Shown here: piece after piece, positions 38,720 through 44,072 of the stretch
Layout of the letters: the number at the start of each line of letters is the position of its first letter
Numbering within the stretch: position 1 is the first letter of the stretch
Assembly: GCF_000424005.1 (NCBI RefSeq)
Contig: NZ_AUJB01000017.1
Coordinates: 1 to 64,000, forward strand
From: Pseudobutyrivibrio ruminis CF1b
GTDB taxonomy: Bacteria > Bacillota > Clostridia > Lachnospirales > Lachnospiraceae
DNA length: 64,000 nucleotides
Reading direction: 5' to 3'
Notes under the pieces: generated by a model
Database searches by the model: none
What the model saw: the letters and a program-made list of their open reading frames with translations, nothing else
What the model was told of the DNA's origin: nothing
Translations under genes and position numbers: made by a program

Positions 38720-38968
38720 TTATTTTGTAAGGAAATCAGAAAGCTCAGCTACTGCTTTTTCTTCATCATCACCTGCTGCATCAATAACAACGCGTGAACC
38801 TGAAGACAATACCAAACTCATCATTCCCATAATGCTCTTTGCGTTAACCTTTTTCTCATCCATTTCAAAATAAATGGAACTAGAAAATCTATTTGCCAAC
38901 TGAACTAAATGGGCTATAGGTGTAGCTTCCATTGAATTTGACATCTGAATAGTAACTTCTTTTTGCAT
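38720..38968 (-). CDS. HPr-like protein, Crh type (catalytic His replaced)
   Basis: 82 aa, full length for the HPr fold. HPr normally has the phosphoacceptor His15 in GLHARPA; here the aligned stretch is SMEATPIA with Glu14 at the His position and Thr16 at the neighbouring Arg. The regulatory Ser is kept in NAKSIMGMM (Ser45, equivalent to HPr Ser46), and the following segment resembles B. subtilis Crh. Therefore it cannot carry PTS phosphate but could be a substrate of HprK (encoded at 43134-44072) and a CcpA corepressor. It lies directly after whiA, the position of crh in B. subtilis. The classification is inference from sequence and neighbourhood. Confidence 0.88.
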   Translation of the reverse strand: MQKEVTIQMSNSMEATPIAHLVQLANRFSSSIYFEMDEKKVNAKSIMGMMSLVLSSGSRVVIDAAGDDEEKAVAELSDFLTK

Positions 38969-39009
38969 GACGTCCTCCTGAATTTCTAATAAAACCTAAT
39001 GCCGGCTGA

Positions 39010-39852
39010 TTATAATTCCTTTGCTATTGCAGCCAGCTTTTTAAACCGATGGTTAACTCCTGATTTTCCGATAGGTGGCTCCAGCAACTGCCCTAAGTCA
39101 GCCAGTGGCGTGTCTGGATAAGCCAATCTCAAATTGGCGATCTCCTGCAGCTGCTCCGGAAGATTTTCCAATCCTATCTTTTCATTGATAAGATTGATTT
39201 CTTCAATTTGACGAACTGCCGCACTAACCGTCTTTCCTATATTAGCTGTTTCGCAGTTTACCTTTCGGTTTATTGTGCCCCTGACTTCCTTAACCACACG
39301 GATGTTTTCCAAATCCATAACAGAATGAGCTGCTTCCATAACACGAAGTATCTCAACTATCTGCGCACCATCTTTGATGTAAAGCACATGTTTACCTGTG
39401 CGCTCTACAATCTTGGCCTCAACATCAAATGCCTTCATCGCCTTCTGAAGCAACTTGGCCTGCTGAGGAATGTTACACACTATTTCATAATGATAACCTT
39501 TGTTTGGATCTGATATAGAACCCGCTGCCAGAAATGCTCCTCTAATGAATGCTCTCTTACAACATGGCTGCTGAATGATAATTTCATCAACCAACTGTCC
39601 ATCCTTAGAAAGCTTCAACATTTTTTGCGTGTCAAAAAAAACATCGTCGGAAATCACGATGGCATCTTTCCCTATATTACATGCATTATTTAATAAAGTA
39701 AAGACTTTTCTATTTAAATGGTCCTCAGATTTTTCTCTGAAGCTGTCGAGCCCTTGTAACATAAGGACTCCGGCAAGCTCAGCAACCACACAATGTCGGC
39801 TCTTCGGAACAACCAAAATAAGCTCTTCTTTTACACTCTTCGAAAATGACAA
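39010..39852 (-). CDS. whiA: DNA-binding protein WhiA
   Basis: 280 aa. Degenerate LAGLIDADG homing endonuclease fold N-terminally (VVAELAGVLMLQG, then RAFIRGAFLAAGSISDP) and a C-terminal HTH (ADLGQLLEPPIGKSGVNHRFKKLAAIA). Family proteins of about 310 aa influence cell division and chromosome segregation; this one is slightly short, with no clear gap. Adjacent to rapZ (1 bp apart) and the crh-like gene. Confidence 0.95.
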   Translation of the reverse strand: MSFSKSVKEELILVVPKSRHCVVAELAGVLMLQGLDSFREKSEDHLNRKVFTLLNNACNIGKDAIVISDDVFFDTQKMLKLSKDGQLVDEIIIQQPCCKRAFIRGAFLAAGSISDPNKGYHYEIVCNIPQQAKLLQKAMKAFDVEAKIVERTGKHVLYIKDGAQIVEILRVMEAAHSVMDLENIRVVKEVRGTINRKVNCETANIGKTVSAAVRQIEEINLINEKIGLENLPEQLQEIANLRLAYPDTPLADLGQLLEPPIGKSGVNHRFKKLAAIAKEL

Positions 39853-40725
39853 TTATTTCCCTCTCAAAGCATCTTTTCCAATATCACGATGCTCAATTTT
39901 AAGTCCGTAAGACTCATCTCCATTTAATGCTTCAAATATCTCATCTGCAAGACATACTGAACGATGCTTTCCGCCTGTACATCCCACAGCAATAACCAAC
40001 TGATTCTTTCCTTCATTAATGTAGTTTGGAATCAAAAACTTAATAAGGTCAGTAGTCTTTTCCAGGAAGATTTGAGCCTCATCATATTTTAATACAAAAT
40101 CTTTGATAGGCTGATCGTTTCCCGTAAATGGGCGAAGCTCAGTATCATAATAAGGATTAGGAAGAAATCTTACATCAAAGACGAGATCCGCATCCTCTGG
40201 AATACCATACTTGAAACCGAATGAGATAATTGTAACGAAAAGACTCTTGTAATCCACGTCATCGACAAAAATCTTTTCAAGCTCCAGCTTCAACTCTCTT
40301 GTAAGCAGGTGAGTGGTGTCAATAACATAGTCAGCCTCTTCTCTAAGGAAACCGATGGATTTTCTCTCTTCTTTGATACCTGCTGCAATTCTCTCTCGAC
40401 CTGATAATGGATGATTTCTTCTAGTCTCCTTATATCTTTTTATAAGGACATCATCCTCAGCATCGAGAAATAGTATATTAAATGGCTTCTGATCGTTGTC
40501 TAATTCCTGCAGGATGTCAGGCAAAAGCTTCATGGCATTGCCATTACGTACATCAATTCCTACTACAATTTTTTTATCAAAGGAACCATTGTCAGCCAAT
40601 TCCACTACGCTCTTAAGTAATTGTACAGGCAAATTATCCACACAATAATAGCCCATATCCTCAAGCATTTTAAATGCTGTATTTTTACCTGACCCGGACA
40701 TTCCGGTAAGAATTAGTAGCTTCAA
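39853..40725 (-). CDS. rapZ: RNase adapter protein RapZ/YvcJ
   Basis: 290 aa nucleotide-binding protein of the UPF0042 family. The Walker A is GMSGSGKNTAF (8-18): Asn15 takes the place where Ser or Thr usually binds Mg2+, with Thr16 next. Other signatures are YYCVDNLPVQLL, FLDAEDDVLIKRYKETRRNHPL, and C-terminal IAVGCTGGKHRSV (250s), which contains the RNA-binding/tyrosine-phosphatase-like loop. In B. subtilis the gene neighbours yvcK, whiA and crh; yvcK is absent here. It overlaps murB by 4 bp. Confidence 0.92.
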   Translation of the reverse strand: MKLLILTGMSGSGKNTAFKMLEDMGYYCVDNLPVQLLKSVVELADNGSFDKKIVVGIDVRNGNAMKLLPDILQELDNDQKPFNILFLDAEDDVLIKRYKETRRNHPLSGRERIAAGIKEERKSIGFLREEADYVIDTTHLLTRELKLELEKIFVDDVDYKSLFVTIISFGFKYGIPEDADLVFDVRFLPNPYYDTELRPFTGNDQPIKDFVLKYDEAQIFLEKTTDLIKFLIPNYINEGKNQLVIAVGCTGGKHRSVCLADEIFEALNGDESYGLKIEHRDIGKDALRGK

Positions 40726-41657
40726 TTGACGTTCCTCCCGATAATTCTAACCTCTGGAGTAAGGTGTACTCCAAACTTTTCATATACTTTCTCGTCCACA
40801 TCCTTCATGAGCTTTAATACATCTGAAGCTGTGGCATCTGATTTATTAATGACGAAGCCACAATGTTTCTCTGAAACCTGTGCGCCTCCTACAGTATAGC
40901 CTCTAAGGCCCGTATCATCAATAAGTTTCCCTGCAAAATATCCCTCAGGGCGCTTAAATGTAGAACCTGCACTTGGGAAATTAAGTGGCTGCTTGTCGAT
41001 GCGTTTCTGTCTGATATCATCGATTGTAGCTTTAATTTCCTCAACATTGCCTGCTGCAAGCTGGATTTTTGCACTGAGGACAAATCCTGTATTTTCCATA
41101 AGAGCAGAATGTCTGTAGGATAAATCAAGTTTATCAACAGAAACCTCTTCAACCGCTCCATCAGCCTTTAAAATCTGAACAGATGTGATAACATCCTTCA
41201 TCTCTCCGCCGTAGGCACCAGCATTCATATAAACTGCACCACCGATGGTTCCAGGGATTCCTGAAGCAAACTCAAGACCTGTAAGGCCTGCATCTGCTGC
41301 TCTGTTGGCTACAGATGAAAGCATTGCACCTGCATCTGCTGTAACGGTTTGGTTAGCCTCATCAATGATTATTTCTGACATAGCCTTTCCGATAGCTACA
41401 ACCACCCCTTCTATTCCATCATCTGAAACCAGAAGATTGCTTCCATTTCCGATTACCATAAATGGTACATCTGCTTCTTTCAGGAAAGCAATAAGAGGAA
41501 CCACCTGAGAAACAGATGGCTCCACATAAATGTCTGCAGGGCCGCCAATCCTGAAGGTGGTGTGCTTCTTCATTGGCTCATCAAGAATGAAGTCCACCTC
41601 AGGAAAACGCTTCTGCAGCTCATTATAAAAATCTTTTTTAGAAAAACTGTTATGCAT
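40722..41657 (-). CDS. murB: UDP-N-acetylenolpyruvoylglucosamine reductase
   Basis: 311 aa flavoprotein of peptidoglycan precursor synthesis. FAD-binding VIGNGSNLLVSDDG, SGIPGTIGGAVYMNAGAYGGE, and active-site regions including YRHSAL and PSAGSTFKRP. Length fits the short type II MurB. It sits where yvcK lies in Bacillus, between the aminopeptidase and rapZ. Confidence 0.96.
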   Translation of the reverse strand: MHNSFSKKDFYNELQKRFPEVDFILDEPMKKHTTFRIGGPADIYVEPSVSQVVPLIAFLKEADVPFMVIGNGSNLLVSDDGIEGVVVAIGKAMSEIIIDEANQTVTADAGAMLSSVANRAADAGLTGLEFASGIPGTIGGAVYMNAGAYGGEMKDVITSVQILKADGAVEEVSVDKLDLSYRHSALMENTGFVLSAKIQLAAGNVEEIKATIDDIRQKRIDKQPLNFPSAGSTFKRPEGYFAGKLIDDTGLRGYTVGGAQVSEKHCGFVINKSDATASDVLKLMKDVDEKVYEKFGVHLTPEVRIIGRNVN

Positions 41658-43047
41658 ACTTAATAAATGCCTCGTATCCTAATAAAGCTTCGTATAAATC
41701 AACCTTTGAGATAATCTCACATGGTGCATGCATTGAAAGTACTGCAACACCTGAATCGATTACCTGCATGTTGTAGTTACCCATGATGTAAGCGATTGTT
41801 CCGCCGCCACCCTGGTCTACCTTACCAAGCTCTGCTGTCTGCCAGCAAACCTTATCCTTATCCATGATTGCTCTAACCTCTCCAACATACTCTGCCGAAG
41901 CATCGTTTGAACCGCTCTTTCCTCTGGCGCCTGTGTACTTGTTGAATACAAGACCGCGTCCAAGGTAAGCTGCATTGTTCTTCTCAAATGCTGAAGCATA
42001 GTTTGGATCAAATGCTGCAGATACATCAGATGAAAGTACCTTGCAGTTTGTAAGAGCTCTTCTAAGCTTAAGCTCTGAGTAGTCTCCCATAAGGTTAAAT
42101 ACCTCTGCAAGTGTGTTCTCAAAGAACTTAGACTGCATACCTGTTGCACCTACTGAACCAATCTCTTCCTTATCAACAAGAAGTGCGCAGGCTGTCTTCT
42201 TAAGCTTCTTTGTAGTATTAAGAAGTGCCATGAATGATGGGTAAGCACATACTCTGTCGTCATGACCATAGCCTAAAATCATTGAACGGTCAAAACCGAA
42301 ATCTCTTGCCTCACCAGCTGGAACAACTTCGATTTCTGCTGAAATGAAATCTTCCTCTTCAATATCGTACTTTTCCTTGAGAAGCTTAAGTACATTCTTC
42401 TTAACAGATTCCTTTTCCTTCTCACCCTTCTTGTCGAAGCCTGGGATGCTGCCGATGATTACGTTAAGATCTTCACCCTCAACTACCTTGGCACCCTTCT
42501 TGTCCATCTGGTCTGCTGCAAGGTGAATAAGAAGATCTGATATACCAAATACAGGATCTGTAGGGTCCTCACCTACATTTACCTTTACAACCTCACCATT
42601 CTTCTTAACAAGAACACCGTGAAGAGCAAGTGGAATAGTAACCCACTGGTATTTCTTGATACCACCATAGTAGTGTGTATCTAAGATCGCCATATCTGAA
42701 TCTTCGTATAATGGATTCTGCTTTAAGTCCATACGAGGGCTATCAATATGTGCTCCAAGGATATTAAGACCGTTCTCAAGAGACTCTGAGCCGATGTTGA
42801 ATACTGCCATCATCTTGCCCTTGTTTACAGCGTAAACCTTGTCTCCAGCCTTAAGCTTTGTATTCTTTGCAATGGCATCCTCAAGATTAATATATCCAGC
42901 TGCCTCTGCCTTTTCTACAAAGAAATCAATACATTCTCTCTCTGTCTTGCACTGTGAAAGGAACTTTCTGTAGTCCTCACCAAATGCCATAACCTTCTTT
43001 AAATCTTTTTCTGAAGTATACTTACTCCATGCGTTAATGCGTTCCAT
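41650..43047 (-). CDS. apeB: M18 family zinc aminopeptidase
   Basis: 465 aa. Typical motifs of M18 (aspartyl/aminopeptidase I): NILGAHIDSPRMDL with the first zinc-binding His and Asp, LGYGHDDRVCAYPS, and DKEEIGSVGATGMQS with catalytic Glu-Glu. Cytoplasmic peptide turnover. It overlaps murB by 8 bp. Confidence 0.93.
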   Translation of the reverse strand: MERINAWSKYTSEKDLKKVMAFGEDYRKFLSQCKTERECIDFFVEKAEAAGYINLEDAIAKNTKLKAGDKVYAVNKGKMMAVFNIGSESLENGLNILGAHIDSPRMDLKQNPLYEDSDMAILDTHYYGGIKKYQWVTIPLALHGVLVKKNGEVVKVNVGEDPTDPVFGISDLLIHLAADQMDKKGAKVVEGEDLNVIIGSIPGFDKKGEKEKESVKKNVLKLLKEKYDIEEEDFISAEIEVVPAGEARDFGFDRSMILGYGHDDRVCAYPSFMALLNTTKKLKKTACALLVDKEEIGSVGATGMQSKFFENTLAEVFNLMGDYSELKLRRALTNCKVLSSDVSAAFDPNYASAFEKNNAAYLGRGLVFNKYTGARGKSGSNDASAEYVGEVRAIMDKDKVCWQTAELGKVDQGGGGTIAYIMGNYNMQVIDSGVAVLSMHAPCEIISKVDLYEALLGYEAFIKYA

Positions 43048-43133: not shown

Positions 43134-44072
43134 TTACTGCTGCTCTCCTGCAATATTGTTCTGAACTCTGCGGTAAAGCTCTTCTGCTGCGTTGTAACCC
43201 ATCTTTTTCTGACGATGGTTAACAGCTGCTGCCTCACAGATAATTGCAAGATTTCGACCTGGTCTGATTGGAAGTGAATGACATGTAACATCAATACCAA
43301 GAATGTTCATGTACTCATCTGTCATACCAAGACGGTCATATTCCTTTTCCTTGCTCCAATCTTCAAGCTTAATAACAAGGTCGATTCTCTGCTCATCCTT
43401 AACAGCCTCAACACCGTAAAGAGATTTAACATCGATGATACCGATGCCTCTAAGCTCGATTAAGTACTGAGTGATAGATGGAGCGCGACCATATAATCTC
43501 TCGTTGTTAGGGCGACGAATCTCAACCACATCATCAGATACAAGTCTGTGACCACGTCTGATAAGCTCAAGCGCTGCCTCTGACTTACCAATACCAGACT
43601 CGCCTGTTATAAGAAGACCTTCGCCATATACATCAACCAATACACCATGAATAGTAGTGTATGGAGCAAAGTCCTTATTTAATGAGAAGATAAGTGCCGA
43701 CATAAATTCTGATGTAGCACGGTCTGTTCCAAGGATTGGAACATTTGCCTTAACAGCTGCCTTTAAAAGAACATCTGCCGGCTTTTCTCCTCTACAGAAA
43801 ATGATACAAGGAATATCATATGAGAAAAGCTTGGCAAAGCTCTCTGCCTTTTCCTCATCAGTCTTCTTTGCTATATATGCAGCCTCAACATTACCAATAA
43901 CCTGAATACGGCTTGGCTCAAAATGCTCATAGAATCCATGAAGCTGAAGAGCTGGTCTGTTGACATCGGAACAAGTAACCTTTACCTCCCCCAAGTTCAA
44001 TTCAGGTGTGTAATTTGTAAGATTAAATCTTTCCTGGACAGTAGCCACTGTAACAAATTTGTTTGCTGCCAT
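43134..44072 (-). CDS. hprK: HPr kinase/phosphorylase
   Basis: 312 aa bifunctional regulator of carbon catabolite repression. Walker A GESGIGKS (157-164) followed by EAALELIRRGHRLVSDDVVEI, the HprK signature LEIRGIGI-like segment (LIELRGIGIIDV), and C-terminal RPGRNLAIICEAAAVNHR. It phosphorylates the regulatory Ser of HPr. The only HPr-like protein in the window is Crh-type, so the PTS HPr must be elsewhere. It stands about 85 bp upstream of the aminopeptidase. Confidence 0.96.
   Translation of the reverse strand: MAANKFVTVATVQERFNLTNYTPELNLGEVKVTCSDVNRPALQLHGFYEHFEPSRIQVIGNVEAAYIAKKTDEEKAESFAKLFSYDIPCIIFCRGEKPADVLLKAAVKANVPILGTDRATSEFMSALIFSLNKDFAPYTTIHGVLVDVYGEGLLITGESGIGKSEAALELIRRGHRLVSDDVVEIRRPNNERLYGRAPSITQYLIELRGIGIIDVKSLYGVEAVKDEQRIDLVIKLEDWSKEKEYDRLGMTDEYMNILGIDVTCHSLPIRPGRNLAIICEAAAVNHRQKKMGYNAAEELYRRVQNNIAGEQQ

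Follow-up and report, generated by a model that had tools for sequence, protein, structure and literature searches.

A serine-only HPr homologue encoded beside whiA in Pseudobutyrivibrio and the distribution of phosphorylation sites among HPr proteins of Lachnospiraceae

HPr is the textbook junction of sugar transport and catabolite repression, through two mutually antagonising sites: Ser46, where HprK phosphorylates both HPr and Crh, and His15, where Enzyme I phosphorylates HPr. In the 64,000-nucleotide stretch of Pseudobutyrivibrio ruminis CF1b DNA analysed here (the window), a gene lying next to whiA encodes an HPr homologue that carries the serine and has glutamate at the position of the histidine. 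Is this a damaged HPr, a counterpart of Bacillus subtilis Crh, or one member of a different arrangement of HPr proteins?

The whiA-linked gene and its product

The gene (38720..38968, minus strand) is an ORF of 82 amino acids with an ATG start, 5 nt ahead of which stands a ribosome-binding site, AGGAGG (38974..38979, minus strand). It lies directly downstream of whiA (39010..39852, minus strand; TIGR00647, 235.5 bits; PF02650/PF14527), 41 bp 3' of the whiA stop codon; the whiA coordinates rest on a TTG start, and the real start may be elsewhere. Upstream are found rapZ (39853..40725, minus strand; NF003828, 354.7 bits), two ORFs that, from reading their translations, we take to be murB (UDP-N-acetylenolpyruvoylglucosamine reductase; 40722..41657, minus strand) and an M18-type aminopeptidase gene (41650..43047, minus strand), and hprK, for HPr(Ser) kinase/phosphatase (43134..44072, minus strand), with 368.8 bits against TIGR00679 (cut-off 240) and matches to PF07475 and PF02603. 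The hprK gene is 4.2 kb upstream of the HPr gene on the same strand, and its product is likely to be the enzyme that modifies the whiA-linked protein. A first-pass annotation of this DNA had both the coordinates and the neighbourhood right (hprK, rapZ, whiA, then the HPr gene); all of these genes are on the minus strand.

That annotation also described the HPr fold as intact and the regulatory serine as kept, and both statements hold. PF00381 covers residues 2-81 with 88.2 bits (cut-off 23), and the AlphaFold model is an HPr fold with a mean pLDDT of 91.8. A Foldseek comparison of this model with the PDB gave 39 matches at E<=0.001, to HPr or Crh chains, with a TM score of 0.94 to 1zvv_J, the Crh of a CcpA-Crh-DNA complex; Crh of 1zvv is also the best PDB match by sequence. 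The best-scoring NCBIfam model, PRK13782 (NF010354), which we take to be the Crh model, fell short of its cut-off of 123 with 94.5 bits, and the general HPr model TIGR01003 reached 71.7 bits, above its cut-off of 47.9. Ser45 (codon AGC, 38834..38836, minus strand) aligns with Ser46 of HPr and Crh, in an unchanged NAKSIMGMMSL motif. Codon 14 (GAA, Glu; 38927..38929, minus strand) aligns with His15 of HPr and Gln15 of Crh, and codon 16 (ACA, Thr; 38921..38923, minus strand) with Arg17 of HPr. The changes of His to Glu and of Arg to Thr had been read correctly in the first pass; the arginine position, given there as adjacent, is two residues after the glutamate.

The only histidine of the protein, His19 (IAHL), lies inside helix 1 of the AlphaFold model. 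It is common to the 11 congeners with an unmasked N-terminus and to Pseudobutyrivibrio sp. MD2005; in relatives a different residue mostly occupies that position, as in ALFVQ or ALLVQ. A true phospho-histidine displaced to another position, which the first pass had named as one of the findings that would overturn its reading, was rejected on these grounds.

A pseudogene or a sequencing error was likewise ruled out. The window protein has a match in each of 12 congeneric genomes searched, and the motif SMEATP is present in all 11 that are free of N masking at the N-terminus, with 90-100% identity among these unmasked congeners. The copy of strain MD2005 is 94% identical and has the same motif, and the WhiA tree described below joins the window, this strain and one congener on a starred branch (support 99). 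Glu14 is not a sequencing error, since the same motif recurs in the 11 unmasked congeners; by the evidence of these sequences, a Ser-only HPr beside whiA is a real, conserved feature.

Like Crh of B. subtilis (PRK13782/NF010354; PDB 1k1c, 1mo1, 1zvv), the window protein combines an HPr fold lacking His15 with Ser46 in NAKSIMG and a gene directly 3' of whiA, and the two are about 44-46% identical over structure alignments. The parallel had been drawn in the first pass from the replaced catalytic histidine and the position after whiA, and Glu14 and the 41-bp gap bear it out. A whiA-crh operon appears in the consulted part of PMC10714963.

HPr proteins in the P. ruminis genome and in Lachnospiraceae

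Searching the window's genome with PF00381 gave four matches over the cut-off and two below it. One is a His-HPr (L001; MHMRPAT and GKSVMM) whose gene has a fructose EIIC gene, identified by reading, on one side and on the other the gene for Enzyme I, the only Enzyme I match in this genome (C3:118401). A second His-HPr (L002; LHLRPAG and AKSVLS) lies 3' of glmM, also named by reading, and both keep a serine. The presence of a separate His15 HPr had been raised as a check in the first pass; with two such proteins and an Enzyme I in the genome, the argument does not fail for want of a second HPr. A 76-aa protein (L004; 1456-1683(+), G000:C5:115341-115568) has DAKSIMGIFSL and is without the His/Arg loop, as is a short HPr-like ORF (L005; 1444-1668(-), G000:C12) with DGKSLLG, which at 21.5 bits falls below the PF00381 cut-off. 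Thus the genome holds a His-HPr with an Enzyme I of its own (L001), together with three proteins, namely the window protein, L004 and L005, that have a serine motif but no His site. The window protein resembles the PTS HPr (PtsH; TIGR01003) in its fold, its Ser46 motif and its passing of the TIGR01003 cut-off. It lacks the other traits of PtsH: it has neither His15 nor Arg17, and it is neither the sole HPr nor linked to Enzyme I, its gene not being beside ptsI and Enzyme I adjoining another HPr.

The survey was extended to 50 Lachnospiraceae genera, one genome each, and 151 full-length HPr domains among the matches listed were aligned; the weakest matches lie outside the list, so that paralogue numbers are to be read as "at least". 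L262 and L283 were included as whiA-linked after reading their loci, and G120 C37:317623 (L164 = L284) was counted once. Among the matches listed, a whiA-linked copy is present in 42 of the 50 genomes and absent from 8. Not one of the 42 has the histidine (Glu in 33, Asp in 6, Gln, Ala and Val in one each), and all 42 have KS(I/L/M)(M/I)G; K-S-I-M-G is invariant in a 49-row alignment of whiA-linked proteins. Since every whiA-linked copy is without His, and 33 have Glu, Glu14 is no quirk of the window's genus. Arg17 is kept in 36 of the 42 and replaced by Thr in three (the window's genus and two other genera).

The prevalence of acidic residues invites the idea that Glu14 is a permanent mimic of phospho-histidine, through which the protein would act like P-His-HPr on a regulatory target. 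An acidic residue occupies this position in 39 of the 42 copies, Asp accounts for 6 of the 9 replacements of Glu (p ~0.02 against a single-base expectation, ignoring shared descent), and most copies have the arginine. We nevertheless hold this to be improbable: Thr replaces Arg17, which would clamp a phosphate, in the three genera just mentioned, neutral residues occur (Q, A and V in the survey; A, Q and G in the WhiA tree set), and an HPr His15Asp change in Thermoanaerobacterium saccharolyticum relieved repression, according to the excerpts consulted of PMC3526391.

A reverse pattern was seen in the 98 HPrs among the matches listed that have His-x-Arg/Lys. KSIMG occurs in none of them and KSLLG in two (L214, L248); in a further 49 the Ser stands in a different context, and in 47 there is no Ser (R in 20, K in 19, A in 4, and G, T, N and D in one each). 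The 51 with Ser include 36 with KSV(L/I)(S/N), 25 of these being exactly AKSVLSVLGA. A second His-HPr type, the relatives of L002 with LHLRPAG and AKSVLSVLGAC, is common in Lachnospiraceae, the exact AKSVLSVLGA string being found in 25 of the 98 listed. All 40 HPrs whose genes lie no more than ~2 kb from ptsI and in its orientation have His, and 32 of the 40 are without Ser46 (K in 14, R in 12, A in 4, T and G in one each); this count leaves out L160, where the pair is in opposite orientation and Ser is kept.

The remaining 11 of the 151 domains comprise six that lack His and have no linkage to whiA, and five with KH.NP and KS(I/L)MG. The latter (L267, L274, L275, L277, L279) come from five genera for which no whiA-linked copy is listed; KH.NP (or KHKNA) and KS(I/L)MG are combined there in an HPr-like protein encoded elsewhere; their His stands in the column of position 15, and they are without Arg17. 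Four of them (L267, L274, L277, L279) lie near a small ORF with (L/V)KPE....YYV(A/V)N close to its end.

Outside Lachnospiraceae, KS(I/L)(M/I/L)G was found in 23 of 28 His-HPrs examined, 8 of them with exact KSIMG; these controls were whiA-linked or better-scoring HPrs of a class-wide sample and had not been drawn at random. Fisher's exact test for 2/98 against 23/28 gives 3e-18, ignoring shared descent. In Lachnospiraceae, to judge from these alignments, the two phosphorylation sites of HPr seem to be split between separate proteins. No description of such a His/Ser split among Lachnospiraceae HPrs was found in the titles and abstract starts of the open-licence PMC literature, and it may be published elsewhere. 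The split is not reported in the portions consulted of PMC6384274, PMC4706839, PMC4374699, PMC10714963, PMC9631020 and PMC9918460, nor mentioned in those of an HPr phylogeny built on genomes of 2004 (PMC2405797).

HprK, Enzyme I and candidate targets

The hprK gene was found in all 50 Lachnospiraceae genomes. In 28 of the 42 genomes that have a whiA-linked HPr gene, hprK lies on the same strand within 10 kb upstream of it; in the other 14 it is not within 10 kb, and in 12 of these it is on another contig. Enzyme I (PF05524) was not found in four of the 50 genomes (G119, G141, G144, G148), whose completeness of 95-100% is to be borne in mind, because an incomplete genome may hide an Enzyme I gene. 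At least three of them retain the whiA-linked protein: in G141 and G144 it is the only PF00381 match at E<=1e-5, and in G148 it is accompanied by an HPr whose His is replaced by Asp (L259). In G119 an HPr in which Gln replaces the His (L250) was found among the matches listed. L250 and L259 are L002-type proteins without His, in two genomes without detectable Enzyme I. In the class-wide sample (16 of 97 whiA-adjacent HPrs, selected by eye), Enzyme I was unmatched in 8 of 11 genomes with a His-less whiA-linked copy and in 3 of 5 with a His copy. No clear link between loss of His and absence of Enzyme I emerges outside Lachnospiraceae, because three of the five His-keeping genomes are also without an Enzyme I match. 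Enzyme I is detectable in 37 of 98 class genomes, and an HPr-like match in 77 of 98.

We consider it probable, on the strength of sequence comparisons, that the whiA-linked protein acts in the manner of Crh, as a Ser-only regulator under the control of HprK, and forms one half of a division of labour among Lachnospiraceae HPrs. The residue pattern, with no His and the Ser motif kept, predicts a substrate of HprK only. HprK would phosphorylate and dephosphorylate Ser45 according to the glycolytic state, and Enzyme I would give the protein no phosphate, because the His and, in this genus, the Arg of the transfer site are absent. The other half would consist of HPrs that keep His15 and have lost or altered the HprK site, the whiA-linked protein offering an HprK site without His15; the altered serine contexts of the His-HPrs (51 of the 98 listed keep Ser) would then not be HprK targets. 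As its output, the whiA-linked protein would probably bind a target protein in a manner dependent on Ser phosphorylation.

A rival candidate substrate of HprK is the 76-aa protein. Proteins of the L004 type are found in 49 of the 50 genera, with 62-80% identity to the copy of the window's genome in the other 48. They are better conserved than the whiA-linked protein, and AKSIMG is present in 29 of 30 fetched sequences, with AKSMMG in the other. From its occurrence in 49 of 50 genera and its better conservation, HprK may serve mainly this type. We strongly doubt the fuller form of this proposal, in which L004 would be the real substrate and the whiA-linked protein minor or decaying; it draws on the breadth and motif of L004 and on the 8 of 50 genomes with no whiA-linked protein among the matches listed. 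Against it, the whiA-linked protein appears to be under selection, given the invariant K-S-I-M-G of the 49-row alignment, the 90-100% identity among unmasked congeners, the proximity of hprK in 28 of 42 genomes and its persistence where Enzyme I is not detectable.

The Ser-only regulator that we favour calls for a partner. If it were a plain Crh, it would act after Ser phosphorylation as a CcpA co-repressor, as in B. subtilis, and back up a dual-site HPr. The whiA position, the intact NAKSIMG and the best PDB match (Crh of 1zvv) are all consistent with this, and LacI-type proteins exist, the window's genome having 10 at E<=1e-10. Yet none of the 50 Lachnospiraceae genomes passed the cut-off of the ccpA model (best score, 249.6 of the 442 bits needed), a cut-off that is tuned to Bacilli and was passed in 2 of 14 control genomes. 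Tyr295, Arg303 and Lys307, which we take to be the residues of CcpA that bind P-Ser-HPr, are all present in B. subtilis CcpA, and they do not occur together in any of 36 CcpA-like proteins examined (8 of the 10 of the window's genome and the best match of 28 other genomes; L294 is gapped at two of the positions, and L304 yielded no usable frame). The nearest to the CcpA residue set is L305, with Y, D, R and Q. Clostridial CcpA could use other residues, and a plain Crh is in our judgment unlikely; CcpA is weakened as the obvious partner, contrary to what the first pass had implied.

MgsA (methylglyoxal synthase), or some other partner, would fit better than canonical CcpA as the target. Unphosphorylated B. 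subtilis Crh inhibits MgsA, according to the parts consulted of PMC9631020 and PMC9918460, which cite Landmann 2011 and present this as an established role. The same gating could be the main job of the whiA-linked protein, the unphosphorylated form inhibiting MgsA and Ser phosphorylation releasing it. MgsA was matched in all 50 Lachnospiraceae genomes, in 41 of them over the cut-off; its presence discriminates nothing, because it is also found in genomes without a listed whiA-linked copy, and we regard MgsA gating as possible but rather unlikely to be the main function.

A broader form of the division of labour can be put forward tentatively, at somewhat less than an even chance. The HprK pathway would have been cut loose from the PTS in Lachnospiraceae, Ser-only receivers (the whiA-linked and 76-aa proteins) reporting the glycolytic state to a non-CcpA target, and the PTS HPrs, in which Lys or Arg often replaces Ser46, being no longer switchable by HprK. 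If the sites really are on separate proteins and no recognisable CcpA is present, catabolite control in Lachnospiraceae, a large family of gut bacteria, cannot be copied from Bacillus, and the "HPr" annotations in these genomes would hide at least three kinds of protein. The family would also provide a natural test of the effect of Ser phosphorylation without a His site.

Origin of the histidine loss

The history of the His position was followed on a tree of WhiA (102 rows, short search, SH-aLRT only, unrooted), whose set was assembled by similarity to the Crh-like query, with relatives and the class sample, and is thus not random. An HPr gene lies directly 3' of whiA in all 102 relatives tested, adjacency having been checked with phmmer; they include 79 of 80 loci fetched by HPr sequence alone, the others being partly chosen for whiA linkage, and L060 was left out for its short WhiA. 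The rows are divided by a branch with support 97. On one side are 57, none with His (49 E, 3 D, 2 Q, 1 A, 1 G, 1 masked); the 45 on the other side are made up of the 28 with His, 13 with Gln and single rows with K, Y, T and N. The 9 rows of Bacillaceae and a relative, with Gln, have as their sister group the 19 rows of Paenibacillaceae and a relative, with His, and the two groups are joined with support 98. At least six changes of His state have to be assumed on this tree; counting starred branches alone brings the minimum to three.

The whiA-linked copy keeps His in Paenibacillaceae and some Clostridia. A single loss shared with Bacillus Crh was rejected for this reason, and the losses look independent; the simplest reading of the tree is that Bacillus Crh and the Lachnospiraceae protein lost His separately. 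The whiA-linked HPrs of Paenibacillaceae and some Clostridia resemble the window protein in gene position, sequence and KSIMG, and differ from it in having kept HARP, so that they look able to do both jobs. A dual-site whiA-linked HPr is possibly the ancestral state, with the tree unrooted. A dual-site HPr in Tepidanaerobacter is described in the part consulted of PMC4374699.

The whiA-linked protein would work like Crh as far as sequence tells, and it would not be Crh by descent of the lost site. Unlike Bacillus Crh, it has Glu for Gln, has lost Arg17 in its genus and His independently, has hprK nearby and falls below the curated NF010354 cut-off; no CcpA orthologue was found in the 50 genomes, and the other HPrs of Lachnospiraceae are rarely or never dual-site. 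Of the Crh function proposed in the first pass, what survives is the whiA position, the lost His, the Ser motif, PRK13782 as the best model, a Lachnospiraceae host and the separate His-HPrs; descent from the same event as in Bacillus does not, and CcpA as partner is weakened.

Clostridial proteins already named Crh-like from similarity share the proposed HprK/CcpA role: Ccel_0806 of Clostridium cellulolyticum (PMC3656788) and a BLAST match to Crh in T. saccharolyticum (PMC3526391). The portions consulted of these two papers hold no discussion of residue 15 or of an HPr split. One clostridial family has the reverse arrangement, with Glu15 (LESKP) in the HPr on the ptsI side (L327 and L328, in G117 and G095) and LHARP in the whiA-linked copy (L120, L126).
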